From Geobacteraceae bacterium (GTDB lineage: Bacteria > Desulfobacterota > Desulfuromonadia > Geobacterales > Geobacteraceae), in NCBI GenBank assembly GCA_009773645.1, contig WSYB01000016.1, positions 1 through 64,000 of the forward strand: a stretch of 64,000 bases of DNA, given 5' to 3'. The position numbers and the translations under genes were made by a program. Shown piece by piece: positions 9,175 to 63,705 of this stretch; position 1 is the first letter of the stretch; each line of letters begins with the position of its first letter. Under the pieces are notes generated by a model. That model worked only from the letters and a program-made list of their open reading frames with translations, had not been told where the DNA came from and did not search any database.

Positions 9175-11559
9175 TTACAACTTTTTCCCGATCTTTTTCA
9201 GCAGGAGCGAATTGGCCACCACCGACACCGATGAAAAAGCCATGGCCAGCCCGGCGAATTCGGGCTTGAGGGTGATGCCCAGCGGGTAGTAAAGGGCGCC
9301 GGCAGCGATGGGGATGCCGAGAACGTTGTAGAAGAGGGCCCAGAAGAGGTTCTGTTTGACCTTGGCCAGGGTGGCCTTCCCCAGTTTGATGGCACGCACC
9401 ACGTCCATCAGGTCGTCGCGCACCAGGACCACGTCGCCGGTCTCTTTGGCCACATCGGCGCCGCTGCCGATGGCGATGCCGACATCAGCCTGGGCCAGCG
9501 CCGGGGCATCGTTGATTCCGTCTCCCGCCATCCCGACATAGAGCCCTCTTTGCTGGTAATCCTTTACTACCTGCTGCTTCCGGTCGGGAAGAACTTCGGC
9601 CTCGAAGCCGTCCACCCCGGCCTGTCCGGCGATTACAGCCGCCACCTCCCGGTGGTCGCCGGTGATCATGAATACGGAGATCCCTACCTTCTTCAATTCT
9701 GCCACGGCCCGCGCCGAGTTCTCCTTGAGAAGGTCGGCAAGGGCGGCTATGCCCATGAGCCGCTCTCCTGCGGCGACGTAGATGAGTGATTTCCCCTCAC
9801 CGGCCAGTCGCGACGCTTCTTTTGCCAGGGAGGCGATGGATATCCCCGCCTCCTCCATGAGTCGGGCGTTCCCCGCCAGGACCCGCGCACCGTTGTAAGT
9901 ACAGGATATGCCGAATCCCCCTTTTTCCCGGTAATCGGTGACAGGTCCGGGCCTGATCCCTTTTGCCACGGCGCCGTGGACTGCAGCCTCGGCCAGAGGG
10001 TGTGAAGAGTGGGATTCGGCGGAGGCCAGGAGTTCGAGAAACCGTCCTTCATCGACTCCCGGAGCGGCGACCGTGTCGGTCAGCACCGGCTCCCCCTTCG
10101 TCAGGGTGCCGGTCTTGTCGAGGAGGAGCGCCTGGATCCGGGAGATGTTTTCCAGCACCGAACCGCGCTTGATGAGGATGCCGCGGCTTAGCCCCACCCC
10201 GCTTCCCACCATGATGGCGGTAGGTGTCGCAAGCCCCATGGCGCAGGGGCAGGCGATGACCACCACGGCAATGGCGAGCTTGAAGGCGAAGAGAAACTCC
10301 TGGTGCATCCCGAAATACCAGAGGGCGAAGGTGGCGGCCGAAAGAGCGACCACCACCGGCACGAATACGCCGGAAACCCGGTCGGCGAAGCGCTGGATCG
10401 GCGCCTTGTCCGCCTGGGCCTCCTGCACCATCCGGACGATCTGGGCCAGTAGGGATTCTTCTCCAATCCGGCTCGCCCGCACCGTGAGGAGGCCGCTCCT
10501 GTTGATGGTGGCGCCGGTAACGTCGTCCCCCACCCCCTTTTCCACCGGGAGCGACTCACCGGTCACCATGGACTCATCGACGCTTGAGCTCCCCGCTACC
10601 ACCTCGCCGTCCATGGGAACGGTCTCGCCGGGACGGACCAGCACCAGGTCCCCGACCTTGACCTGCGAGGCGGGGACCTCTTTTTCTTTCCCCTCAACGA
10701 GGAGCCGCGCCTTGTCCGCCTGGAGCCGGAGGAGCTTTTTCAGCGCCTCTCCCGCCCTGCCCCGAGCCCGCGCCTCCAGATACTTGCCGAGGCGGATGAA
10801 GGCGATGAGCATTGCCGAGGTTTCGAAGAAGACTTCGGCATGCCCGCCAAGGAGGCCGAAAAAGGCGAAGAGGGAATAGAAGTAGGCGGCCGAGGTGCCT
10901 AAGGCCACCAGCACGTCCATGTTGGCGCTCTTGTTTTTGAGGGCGTGATACGAGCCGGAGTAGAAGGTGAGCCCGGCCGAAAACTGTACTGCGGTGGCCA
11001 GCACGAGATTCATCCACCCGACCGCCGGGTTATGGTGCAGGGTCATTGTGGCCATGATCGGCAGGGAGGCGGCGAGGCTGAATATGAACCAGGTGCGCTG
11101 GGTCTTGAGCCGCGCCGAGTCCTCCTCGGTTTCCTCTTCCATCGGCTGGTAACCGGCATCGTTCACCAACGTGAAGATGTCGGCCTTGCCGATCCGGGCC
11201 GGGTCATACTTGACATAGACCGACTCCTGGGCCAGGTTGACCACCGCTACGGAAACGGCAGGGGAGGAGAGGAGTTTCTTCTCCAGGGTGGTTACGCAGG
11301 AGGCGCAATGGAGCCCTCGTACGCCGAAGCGGAGCTCGCCGGCGGAGGACAGGGCACGGATGCCGTAGCCGAGTTCCCTGACCCGCGCCTCAATCCGTGC
11401 ATGATCGATGCGCGATTCGTCGTACCTGACCGACAGTTCTTCCGTGGCAAAGTTGACCGAGGCCTTCTCTATCCCGTCGGCTTCCCCGACCCCCTTTTCG
11501 ATGCGGGCGGCGCAGTTTGCGCACGACATGCCGGTTATTTTAAAGCTCGTCTGCTTCAT
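9175..11559 (-). CDS. copA: Copper-translocating P1B-type ATPase
   Basis: 794 residues. Two N-terminal heavy-metal-binding domains carry GMSCANC (C13/C16) and GLHCASC (C85/C88). Then come eight membrane helices with the CPC metal site ([11 protein letters not shown]), an actuator domain (TGES), the phosphorylation motif DKTGTLT, the SSHPLAEA nucleotide loop and the [10 protein letters not shown] hinge. Together these define a Cu(I) exporter of the CopA class. It overlaps the 3' end of an AI-2E-family gene by 20 bases and is probably co-transcribed with it. No CopY- or CueR-like regulator is adjacent. Confidence 0.95.
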
Positions 11560-12607: not shown

Positions 12608-13656
12608 TATCGGGCCTTCCCGGCAAAGTCGCCGCGGTGGAGATGCTCCAGGAATATCATGACTGCGGCAGCTATGGGGATGGCGAGGAGAATGCCCCAA
12701 AAACCCATCAGTTCGCCAAAAGCCATGACAAAGATGATGGTAATGAGGGGGTTTAAGTCCATCGCCTCTTTAAACACGAGTGGTTTGATAACGTATCCTT
12801 CGACGAAATAGATAACCGAGAAGGCGGCGATGACCTTGATCAATGCGATGCCGCTCTGGAACTTGACATAGGCGAAGAAGAGCGCCGGCAGCATGGCCAG
12901 GATGACGCCTATGAAGGGGAGAATCGAAGCAAGTCCGGCAAAAATGCCGTTTAAGACAGCATAGTCGATGTCCAGATAAAAAAGGGCGCCCGTGGAGAGA
13001 ACCGCCACTATGGCCGAAACGATGAGCTGCCCCCGGATGTAACCGCCGACGCTTTTGTTTATCTCCCGCCCCAGTTCCACAATCCTTTCCCGGCGCCCTT
13101 CGGGAAGCCAGGCCGCGATACCGTCCTTTATATCCTTTTTGTAGAAGAGCATGAAAAATACCAGAATGGGAGCAAGAATAAGGTTGAACAGGTTGAAGAC
13201 CACGCTGGCGGCTGCCGCGTAAACCCCGGCGCCGACCCTGCCCAAGAGCTTGTCCATCTGACCGGTAATCGTCTCGAACAACCAGCGCCATTCATCGTTG
13301 ACATAGGCCGGCGCCGTGCGCAGTTTCCACGACAGGGCCAGATCTTTCCCCTTTTGCAGATAGACCGGCAGCCCATGAATAAACGCTTCCCAGCGGAGAT
13401 TCAGAAAGGGGACGAAGAAGGCCAGGAAAAAGAACGCAAAGACGGCGAGGAATGAGTAGAGAATGATTAGGCCGTAGATGCGGCGGATCTTGCGCCTCTC
13501 CAGAAAGACCAGGAAGGGGTCCAGGAGATAGGCGAGCACAAAGGAGAGAAGAAAGCAGGAAACCGTGTGCTGCAAGGCGTAACCGGCGGCCAAAACGGCG
13601 GCCGTCAACAGCAGGGCTGGAACGAGTCTGTTTGAAGCCGGTTGATGTGGTGCCAT
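12607..13656 (-). CDS. AI-2E family (PerM-like) permease, copy 2
   Basis: A 349-residue paralogue of the next gene downstream, sharing the motifs YLLDPFL.FLERR, ILVFFMLFYKKDIKD, GIFAGLASILPFIGV and LNPLITIIFVMAFGELMGFWG. I start at 13656, where AGAGGAACTC precedes ATG; an in-frame start 13 codons earlier lacks a good site. It heads the paralogue-paralogue-copA string, in which every junction overlaps. The function of the pair beside a copper pump is unknown. Confidence 0.88.
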   Translation of the reverse strand: MAPHQPASNRLVPALLLTAAVLAAGYALQHTVSCFLLSFVLAYLLDPFLVFLERRKIRRIYGLIILYSFLAVFAFFFLAFFVPFLNLRWEAFIHGLPVYLQKGKDLALSWKLRTAPAYVNDEWRWLFETITGQMDKLLGRVGAGVYAAAASVVFNLFNLILAPILVFFMLFYKKDIKDGIAAWLPEGRRERIVELGREINKSVGGYIRGQLIVSAIVAVLSTGALFYLDIDYAVLNGIFAGLASILPFIGVILAMLPALFFAYVKFQSGIALIKVIAAFSVIYFVEGYVIKPLVFKEAMDLNPLITIIFVMAFGELMGFWGILLAIPIAAAVMIFLEHLHRGDFAGKAR

Positions 13657-28901: not shown

Positions 28902-28972
28902 GGCAAAGGGCGAAGGGCTAAGGGCGAAAGGAAAGGCTTAAACCTTTAGCCTTTTGCCCTTTGCCTTTTGCC
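28902..28972. repeat. GGCGAAG/GGCTAAG heptamer array, inverted arms
   Basis: Fills the cysH-cysD gap: GGCAAAG GGCGAAG GGCTAAG GGCGAAA on the left, complemented on the right by CTTTAGC CTTTTGC CCTTTGC CTTTTGC. Its units are related to, but not the same as, the array between cysD and cysN. Confidence 0.85.
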
Positions 28973-32014: not shown

Positions 32015-32090
32015 AGGATCGAGGTTCGAGGTACGAGGACCGAGGTTCATAACCCCCATTCCTCGCTCCTTGCTCCTCGCGCCTCGCTCC
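32015..32090. repeat. CGAGGTT-type heptamer array, inverted arms
   Basis: Between tusA and the unknown gene: left arm GGATCGA GGTTCGA GGTACGA GGACCGA, right arm CCTCGCT CCTTGCT CCTCGCG CCTCGCT. The unit differs from that of the other arrays, while the two arms complement each other. Confidence 0.85.
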
Positions 32091-32092
32091 TT

Positions 32093-42901: not shown

Positions 42902-43267
42902 TTATTTCGCTTGCTCTTTGGACTGCAGCACAAAGGCAAACAGCTCTCTGCACATTTGCAGCCGTTTCCGGTAAACCTTTCTCGGAGTTTCTTCCAGCGA
43001 TTCAATGACCGGCTTCAACTTGTCACATCTCTCAATAAGCGATTGCAGTTCCGCTTTTGACAGGGACATGGAGTCATCAGTCCTTGAGCAGATATCCGCT
43101 ATCTCTTTTCTCCATGGCTCTTCCGCACAGGCCGGCTGCACGATATTGAACCCGGCGGTGCGCTCCCATTTGGCGGCAGGACCTGTCCCATATGGTGAAG
43201 TGGAGGGTGTCGCAACTACCGTAAATAGTCCCGTCAGTAATGTGAATAAGATTCTTATGAACGCCAT
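42902..43267 (-). CDS. Exported hypothetical protein
   Basis: 121 residues. An N-terminal hydrophobic segment (IRILFTLLTGLFTVVATPS) is followed by a helical domain with four cysteines (PACAEE, DICSRT, ERCDKL, QMCREL) spaced for two helix-joining disulfides. It lies 15 bases after the cytochrome gene and might be its partner. No ribosome site stands out beyond GGGTGATC. Family unknown. Confidence 0.55.
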   Translation of the reverse strand: MAFIRILFTLLTGLFTVVATPSTSPYGTGPAAKWERTAGFNIVQPACAEEPWRKEIADICSRTDDSMSLSKAELQSLIERCDKLKPVIESLEETPRKVYRKRLQMCRELFAFVLQSKEQAK

Positions 43268-43282
43268 ATGATCACCCTTCGG

Positions 43283-44057
43283 CTATGGATGACATCTTTT
43301 GCAGTCATTCATGGGAAATGCCACATTTAAATGGCAGGTACCGCAAAAGTCACCCCGTAGAATATACGACATCGAAAAATGCTTGGTGGTTTTCTTTTTT
43401 ATATTAAAAATATCCGGATGGCAACTGTTGCAGTCCAGCCACTCGGTGTGGGCCTTGTGGGGAAAGATCGCGGGAGAGATCATCGCCATTTCCGCTTCAA
43501 GCATCAGAGTTTTGTCAAAAGGAATGTCCTGAGGCTTCGATTTGAGGTGATTTGCCGGGGAGATCAATTTTCTTCTCAACGCTTCTACCCAGTCTATGCC
43601 GTTGCCGAATTCCGTTCTCGGAAAAGGAGCTTTTGAAAACAGGGAATAGTTATCCCGCCCGGAACCTATGTCGCCGGTGTGGCACTTGTCACAGTTGCCG
43701 TTGGGTCTGAAAGCGATCTTTCCGTTGTGGCAGGAGCCGCAAAATTTCCCCCGTCTGTTGGTTGCTTCCGATATCTCGGTAGTATTCACCTTCATGTACC
43801 TTCATGTTAAATTCAAGTTCGGAATGGCATACCCGGCATGTGTATTTCATTCTGTGCTGCCAATGGGAAAATGAAACCGGTTTTACACCATTTCTCGTCG
43901 ATGTCCGGTCGATGAGGATGTTTCCATACTCTTCAAACGGTGCGACGGGGGGCAGATTAAAGTAAGCGACCCCCCGCGACGGCGAAGAGAAGAGCACTAC
44001 CGGCAACAGCAACGCAATCTTTAATATTAAAGGGGCTTTGTATGGCATCTTTGGCAA
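43283..44057 (-). pseudogene. Hexaheme c-type cytochrome gene split by a frameshift
   Basis: Read as one, this gene would encode an exported c-type cytochrome of about 250 residues with six haem sites: CRVCH, CGSCH, CDKCH, CNSCH, CGTCH and CKRCH. The 5' part (44057 to about 43790) and the 3' part (from about 43800) lie in different frames. A perfect tandem duplication of ten bases, ACCTTCATGT, at 43788-43807 causes the shift: deleting one copy joins ELEFNMKV directly to NTTEISEATNRRGKFC. The 5' signal peptide (KAPLILKIALLLPVVLFSS) and all haem sites are otherwise intact, so the mutation is recent or a sequencing artefact. Its paralogue is the next gene upstream. Confidence 0.9.
43788..43807. 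repeat. 10-bp perfect tandem duplication that breaks the cytochrome gene
   Basis: Two adjacent copies of ACCTTCATGT. Ten is not a multiple of three, so the frame shifts. Loss of one copy restores a single long frame. Confidence 0.95.
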
Positions 44058-44824
44058 TCGATCTGAGGGAACGCAACAGTGTCATGGCATACACCGCAAT
44101 ATTTCCTGTCGAACAGTTCTATCATTGAGTATTTGGTCGCCCCTTTTTTGACTCCGACGAATATTTCCGGATGACACAATTCGCAACCGTTCCAGACGGT
44201 ATGCTTTTTGTGGGAAAAGATGATGTCCGGCATCCCCTCAATTTTCGAGCCTATGTAAAAGTCCTTTTGCGCGGCCATGGGAGCCCGTTTTATGGACACT
44301 CCCTCAAGAAAATCGACAGGTTTTATCAACCCCGTTTCTTCGGCCTTTTCCCAGTCTATACCATTGCCAAACCGCTCTTTTGGGAGTCTTTCGGCAAATT
44401 TGTAAAAATCAGTCTCTTTCGTTGGATTCGGGGCGGCAGCGTGACATCGCTCACATCTTTTGACGTCACCCTTGGTAAATTCCTTGGAGCAGGCCGCAAA
44501 CACCCTTCTCCCTTCAAATGACATTTTATCGTTATGGCATGTACCACAGAAATAACCCCTCATATTGTCGGCGGCCTTTATCTGGGTTTCTCCGGTTTTC
44601 ATGGAAAAACCGATATCCACATGGCAGAGGCGGCAGGTGAATTTTCCCCTGTGCGTCCAATGGTCAAACTCAACCGGGGCGATTCCGACTTTTGTGGCAT
44701 AATTATTTAGCGTAACCTTGCCGTATTCATGAGGTTTCGGCCGCTTTTTTTTCACCCCCCCTTGGGCAAAGCACAAACCTGCCAGAGAAACAATCAGTAA
44801 AATTATAAATAGTAATTTTTTCAT
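44027..44824 (-). CDS. Hexaheme c-type cytochrome
   Basis: A 265-residue exported protein (signal MKKLLFIILLIVSLAGLCFA) with six CxxCH haem-binding sites: CRLCH (from 64), CGTCH (93), CERCH (124), CELCH, CGVCH and CQRCH. Additional His residues before them (EFDHWTHRGKFTC, FSHKKHTVWNGC) are suited as distal ligands. It looks like two c7-type triheme domains in tandem. Such proteins carry electrons through the periplasm in Geobacter-like organisms. It overlaps the broken paralogue by 31 bases, so the two form one operon after a likely duplication. Confidence 0.92.
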   Translation of the reverse strand: MKKLLFIILLIVSLAGLCFAQGGVKKKRPKPHEYGKVTLNNYATKVGIAPVEFDHWTHRGKFTCRLCHVDIGFSMKTGETQIKAADNMRGYFCGTCHNDKMSFEGRRVFAACSKEFTKGDVKRCERCHAAAPNPTKETDFYKFAERLPKERFGNGIDWEKAEETGLIKPVDFLEGVSIKRAPMAAQKDFYIGSKIEGMPDIIFSHKKHTVWNGCELCHPEIFVGVKKGATKYSMIELFDRKYCGVCHDTVAFPQIDCQRCHTKPL

Positions 44825-45977: not shown

Positions 45978-45980
45978 AAC

Positions 45981-46049
45981 CGGGAAGCGGGAACCGGGAA
46001 GCGGGAACCGGCTTGTGAAAAATACGGTTCCCGCTTCCCGGTTCCCGGA
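45981..46049. repeat. GGGAAGC/GGGAACC heptamer array with inverted arm
   Basis: After the ispE stop: GGGAAGC GGGAACC GGGAAGC GGGAACC, then 18 bases, then GGTTCCC GCTTCCC GGTTCCC. The arms pair almost perfectly and end just before tRNA-Gln. Confidence 0.9.
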
Positions 46050-55036: not shown

Positions 55037-55071
55037 GGTAGGGATAAAAAGGGTTTTGTAAACTGTCAATG

Positions 55072-55125
55072 TGTAGACGCGACACCGAAAGAAAGACATG
55101 TAGACGCGACACCGAAAGAAAGACA
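55072..55125. repeat. 27-bp perfect tandem duplication before the MqsA-like gene
   Basis: Two copies of a 27-base unit (TGTAGACGCGACACCGAAAG and seven more bases), at 55072-55098 and 55099-55125. Because 27 is nine codons, it leaves the upstream frame open (CRRDTERKT twice). Confidence 0.92.
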
Positions 55126-55539
55126 ATGACTAATCCCGTCTGTCCGGAAACGGGTACACCGATGTATCGCGGGGTGCGCCCCATGACTCTTTCCTACAAA
55201 GGGAAGAGCATTACTTTCGATATGCCTGGTTGGTATTGTGACCAATCAGAGGAGAGTATGCACACCGGTGAAGATATGAAGGTTTCCGACCGGATGTTGA
55301 ATCTCCTCAAGGCCCGAAGCGAAGGGCTGCTTGAGCCGGAGGAAATTCGTCGTATCCGCAAAAAACTTCGTCTCTCACAGGAAGCGGCAGGTCGCTTGAT
55401 CGGCGGTGGCCCGCGGGCTTTCCAGAAATACGAAAGCGGCGACCTGTCGCCTAGCCGTGCTGTCAGCAGCGCTCTTGTCTTGCTGGATCATGACCCGGAG
55501 GCGTTGTCAGTGCTCAAGGCACACAGTAAAGCTGCTTAA
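55126..55539 (+). CDS. MqsA-like zinc-finger/HTH antitoxin, toxin partner not seen
   Basis: 137 residues. An N-terminal zinc-finger-like part (PVCPETGTPMYRGVRPM, PGWYCDQSEES) and a C-terminal helix-turn-helix (LRLSQEAAGRLIGGGPRAFQKYESGDLSPSRA) match the MqsA antitoxin family. The two CxxC pairs of E. coli MqsA are each reduced to one Cys here, so metal binding may be lost. No MqsR-like toxin is beside it. The start follows GAAAGAAAGACA; a 27-bp duplication extends the frame upstream. Confidence 0.8.
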   Translation: MTNPVCPETGTPMYRGVRPMTLSYKGKSITFDMPGWYCDQSEESMHTGEDMKVSDRMLNLLKARSEGLLEPEEIRRIRKKLRLSQEAAGRLIGGGPRAFQKYESGDLSPSRAVSSALVLLDHDPEALSVLKAHSKAA

Positions 55540-56856: not shown

Positions 56857-56871
56857 TTCGGAAACTTAAAT

Positions 56872-56938
56872 CCGGGACTCGGGATCCGGGATCCGGGATC
56901 CGGAAAGGCCTTTACGCTTCCCGCTTCCCGCTTCCCGA
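56872..56938. repeat. GGGATCC/GCTTCCC heptamer array
   Basis: GGGACTC GGGATCC GGGATCC GGGATCC in one arm and GCTTCCC GCTTCCC GCTTCCC in the other. This time the arms are related but not fully complementary. It fills the glyQ-glyS gap. Confidence 0.85.
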
Positions 56939-63603: not shown

Positions 63604-63705
63604 CATGCTTCTGACGAATCTTCAAATGTCAAACATGACCCTCTGTAGTTCTTCCATGCTTCTGACGAATCTTCAAATGTCAAACATGACCCTCTGTAGT
63701 TCTTC
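63604..63705. repeat. 51-bp perfect tandem duplication
   Basis: 63604-63654 and 63655-63705 are identical. Each holds CATGCTTCTGACGAATC, the inverted-repeat arm AAATGTCAAACATGAC and CCTCTGTAGTTCTTC. No gene is encoded here. The frame on the minus strand only repeats the duplicated peptide. Confidence 0.95.

Follow-up and report, generated by a model that had tools for sequence, protein, structure and literature searches.

A 10-bp tandem duplication breaks the reading frame of gene B, a putative hexaheme cytochrome gene of a conserved three-gene cassette (A-B-C) in a Geobacteraceae draft genome. Our preferred reading, to which we give a probability of roughly 0.6, is that the duplication is a single derived event, very recent in the sequenced strain. 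Most likely, it is an ordinary fresh loss-of-function mutation, or else a slip in the assembly, rather than a purpose-built on/off switch. The window, i.e., the whole 64-kb stretch of DNA that was analysed, covers contig positions 1-64000 of a 4.74-Mb draft assembly consisting of 78 contigs, with a contamination estimate of 4.12%.

The duplication and the gene it splits

In the window sequence, ACCTTCATGT is present twice, head to tail, at 43788-43807, exactly where the preliminary description had placed it. In the gene sense, on the minus strand, the unit reads ACATGAAGGT in two exact copies, and the flanks of the duplication add zero extra matching bases on either side. The 20-mer ACCTTCATGTACCTTCATGT formed in this way occurs once in the window, and a search of the 4.74-Mb assembly allowing up to two mismatches revealed no second array of it. 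A first-order model predicts ~0.3 exact 10-bp tandems by chance in 64 kb, and an exact 10-bp tandem was contained in 12 of 20,000 codon shuffles of gene B; by itself, the repeat exceeds chance expectation by little. The non-chance element is that the one-copy form matches, ungapped, a residue stretch conserved across phyla. The features considered here, all on the minus strand, are as follows:

43788..43807, minus strand: frame-shifting 10-bp tandem duplication (exact repeat, by sequence inspection)
43283..44048, minus strand: gene B, putative hexaheme c7-type cytochrome, frame-broken (from ORFs, profiles, and relatives)
43689..44048, minus strand: 5' frame of gene B as assembled, 119 aa, one CXXCH, signal peptide recognized by eye (from the ORF list)
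43283..43795, minus strand: 3' frame of gene B as assembled, 170 aa, five CXXCH, no signal peptide (from the ORF list)
44027..44824, minus strand: gene A, intact hexaheme paralogue, 265 aa (from ORF, profile, and comparison)
42902..43267, minus strand: gene C, 121 aa, hydrophobic N-terminal stretch (from ORF and relatives)

With one copy of the unit, gene B runs from ATG 44048 to the stop at 43283 and encodes 251 aa with six CXXCH motifs (CRVCH, CGSCH, CDKCH, CNSCH, CGTCH, and CKRCH), three for each of two c7-type domains; the start at ATG 44048 is more likely than that at TTG 44057. The one-copy protein is matched in two stretches both by TIGR04257 (nanowire_3heme; 124.7 bits, cut-off 40) and by PF14522 (Cytochrome_C7; score 87, cut-off 24.8), and its best solved relatives are 3ov0, 3oue, 3ouq, and 1rwj. 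The one-copy product is predicted to be an exported two-domain c7-type triheme cytochrome, in agreement with the earlier proposal that removal of one copy fuses the two frames into an exported protein with six CxxCH sites. The parallel drawn there with an intact paralogue upstream holds as well, gene A likewise having six CXXCH. Domains of the c7 type are found in many other places in the genome. They also make up the dodecaheme GSU1996 of Geobacter sulfurreducens, in which four triheme domains stand in series (PMC10138318); one-copy gene B resembles it in being built of c7-type triheme domains (TIGR04257/PF14522) and differs in having two domains, not four, a longer linker, and a broken reading frame.

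In the assembled sequence, the frame is interrupted after the first haem motif and before the second. The 5' frame ends with 35 wrong-frame residues before its stop at 43689, and the 3' frame opens at an ATG within the duplication. It is proposed that the 10-bp duplication arose once, very recently, and shifted the frame of gene B, so that the cell would make only a short exported fragment with at most one haem, which would probably be degraded. Attachment of c-type haem occurs outside the cytoplasmic membrane. A product started from the internal ATG would presumably stay in the cytoplasm and receive no c-type haem, because it has no signal peptide. The two-copy allele would then be a null for cytochrome B, with A and C intact, and the loss would presumably be tolerated because the genome has paralogue A and many further cytochromes of the c7 type. 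Loss by frameshift at the level of a strain was reported for katG of Geobacter strain KN400 (PMC3495685). There, as proposed here, a single indel inactivates one gene in one Geobacteraceae strain, although a single-base deletion is involved in KN400 and a ten-base duplication in gene B.

Ancestral state and age of the duplication

Gene B loci of relatives were gathered by tblastn. This gave 83 loci, with 78 distinct sequences, in which gene B stays open in one frame through the break site; they belong to Geobacteraceae, Nitrospirota, Betaproteobacteria, and other groups. The residues at this site, typically EFNMKVNTTEITE, are highly conserved without insertion, and one locus (L045) shows one or two additional residues slightly downstream. 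Six CXXCH motifs are present in 63 of the 83 loci and five, within the matched stretch, in the remaining 20. None of the 78 distinct sequences has a tandem repeat at the break site, and the 8-9 bp tandems seen in gene B of three relatives are isolated and different from the 10-bp unit. Since the frame of the relatives is unbroken and the EFNMKVNTTEITE residues are conserved without an insert, one copy is the ancestral state and two copies the derived one. The two-copy state is known from one assembly, which is the only genome of its genus compared. The only other frame-broken gene B belongs to Geotalea toluenoxydans (L062 3360-3410) and is broken at a different site, where, compared with genome G030 of the same genus, each of two G runs lacks one G; this break is probably a sequencing error.

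The rest of gene B is preserved, as the preliminary description had stated in concluding that the change is either very recent or an error. Within its 251 codons, there is no other stop or frame break and all six CXXCH are kept. A decaying pseudogene would be expected to carry several disabling changes, and only the duplication was found. General decay of the cassette is ruled out, with A, C, and the rest of B intact. Amino-acid divergence from relatives differs little between the two sides of the break and intact gene A; against the gap-free genome G034, dN is 0.115 and 0.192 on the two sides and 0.161 in gene A. Because there is no other damage and the nonsynonymous divergence of gene B matches that of intact A, selection seems to have been at work on gene B up to the very recent past. 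Synonymous divergence from every relative is saturated, which defeats dating of the duplication by this measure, so its age is not measurable in this way. The term "recent", as applied here, rests on the absence of further damage.

Mutation, assembly error, or switch

The main rival of a true mutation is a sequencing or assembly error, in which case the real gene B would be one-copy and intact. This is a serious possibility, although clearly less probable than the preferred reading, and the functional look of the remainder of the gene is in line with it, as are the 78 contigs of the draft and its contamination estimate. Other broken genes are present in the assembly. The murF gene (L133, contig C13, ~12960-13000), identified by TIGR01143, is present only once in the genome and loses its frame next to a run of G. 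Bacteria with a normal cell wall cannot do without MurF, so a living cell could hardly tolerate this break, which most probably is an error in the assembled sequence. The gene of the NiFe-hydrogenase large subunit (L183, contig C43, ~10480-10500) is likewise disrupted, near its 3' end, with ~14 codons seemingly missing together with a frame change. The seeming sequencing error in gene B of Geotalea toluenoxydans, consisting of two missing G's in G runs, also speaks for an error. However, a single base at a homopolymer is affected in murF, and an exact 10-bp duplication is an event of a different kind; on this ground, a true mutation is favoured over an error by about two to one.

The frequency of similar tandems also argues against the error reading. 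Exact tandems of 10-15 bp number 29 per Mb here, compared with 26 in G034 and 17.5 in G030, both gap-free. Repeats of this type are thus not clearly over-represented, and on these rates a systematic tandem-duplication artefact of the assembly was rejected. In a frame-break survey, ~265 matched places in 1.07 Mb of the assembly were inspected, and some frameshift calls that resembled spurious ORFs (e.g., L133 near 5785) were excluded from the broken genes. The reverse survey on gap-free genomes called 7 of 304 places broken, many of them doubtful. No claim of a higher overall frame-break rate in this assembly is made, because the gap-free genomes also give several calls. The case is mostly a cautionary one: when a draft genome shows a single frame-breaking microduplication, this is either a fresh mutation or an error, and the absence of gene B from the species should not be declared on the present evidence. 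Should the duplication prove real, the strain would be a natural cytochrome B knock-out that retains intact A and C, and could serve to study the role of the conserved A-B-C cassette.

The preliminary description had also raised the idea of a reversible off state, and this part was not borne out: the array has two copies only, the repeat is absent at the site in all relatives, neither kept nor recurring among the 78 distinct sequences, and there is no mark of a contingency locus. In such a phase switch, expansion and contraction of the 10-bp unit would turn cytochrome B on and off. Copy number does alter the frame here, with two exact 10-bp copies, and loss of one would restore it exactly. Phase variation through two-copy tandem duplications within the ORF is described for the pneumococcal capsule genes cap3A, cap8E, and tts (Waite et al., 2001, 2003, as cited in PMC4022640). 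The likeness is that a gene is inactivated by a spontaneous short tandem duplication and can regain function when one copy is lost. The difference is that here no variation between cells or strains is seen (one assembly) and no phenotype is known. The expected reversion is also limited, being no more than ~1e-5 for insertions of up to 9 bp in the pneumococcal study (PMC4022640), and no second array of the 10-bp sequence was found in the genome. It is therefore improbable that the duplication toggles in natural populations and thereby reversibly switches one of the cytochromes in a conserved electron-transfer cassette. Even then, phase variation by a two-copy duplication would be of a known kind, because such duplications already phase-vary the pneumococcal capsule genes; no paper on phase variation of a Geobacter cytochrome was found among the openly available papers searched. 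The revertibility of gene B is the ordinary revertibility of any short tandem duplication: one copy may be dropped and the frame regained, but only at the low frequency typical of such repeats.

Two further explanations have even less in their favour. The break might be bridged by the ribosome or RNA polymerase through a -1 slip near GGGGGAAATTTTG, so that the six-haem protein would still be made, and runs of G5, A3, and T4 do lie within the frame overlap, just before CGSCH, the second CXXCH. However, no canonical slippery heptamer was read by eye in the zero frame, a -1 slip would replace ~16 conserved residues, and the relatives need no slip event; bridging is very unlikely. The least probable explanation is the footprint of an excised insertion sequence that left a 10-bp target duplication behind. 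Exactly two copies without microhomology would fit such a footprint, and the DDE_Tnp_1 group holds IS4-like elements with target duplications near 10 bp. In the search for this one profile family, however, no DDE_Tnp_1 transposase was found anywhere in the genome.

The A-B-C cassette and other repeats in the window

The conserved three-gene cassette around the duplication is the more useful by-product of the analysis. Gene A lies directly upstream of gene B, shares 41% identity with it, and overlaps its start by 22 nt. A strong Shine-Dalgarno sequence precedes gene A and none precedes gene B. Given this overlap and the distribution of the Shine-Dalgarno sequences, gene B is probably translated by coupling to gene A. 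Gene C, which comes after gene B, gave zero matches in searches of Pfam and NCBIfam profiles; its homologues adjoin the A/B pair in most loci examined, and in several Geobacteraceae C stands between A and B. The cassette (window 42902-44824) is kept throughout Geobacteraceae and Nitrospirota and, in part, in further phyla, and the neighbourhood beyond it is not conserved in the relatives.

The window also contains other repeats. Arrays of 7-bp repeats are located at 28902-28972, 32015-32091, 45978-46048, and 56870-56937, with the repeats standing in pairs separated by a few tens of bases. Inverted repeats are formed by three of the four arrays, e.g., with perfect 23-nt arms at 45988-46047. Two exact two-copy tandems have units that are multiples of three: one of 27 bp at 55072-55125, right at the beginning of a 156-aa ORF (55069-55539), and one of 51 bp at 63604-63705, in a doubtful 103-aa ORF.
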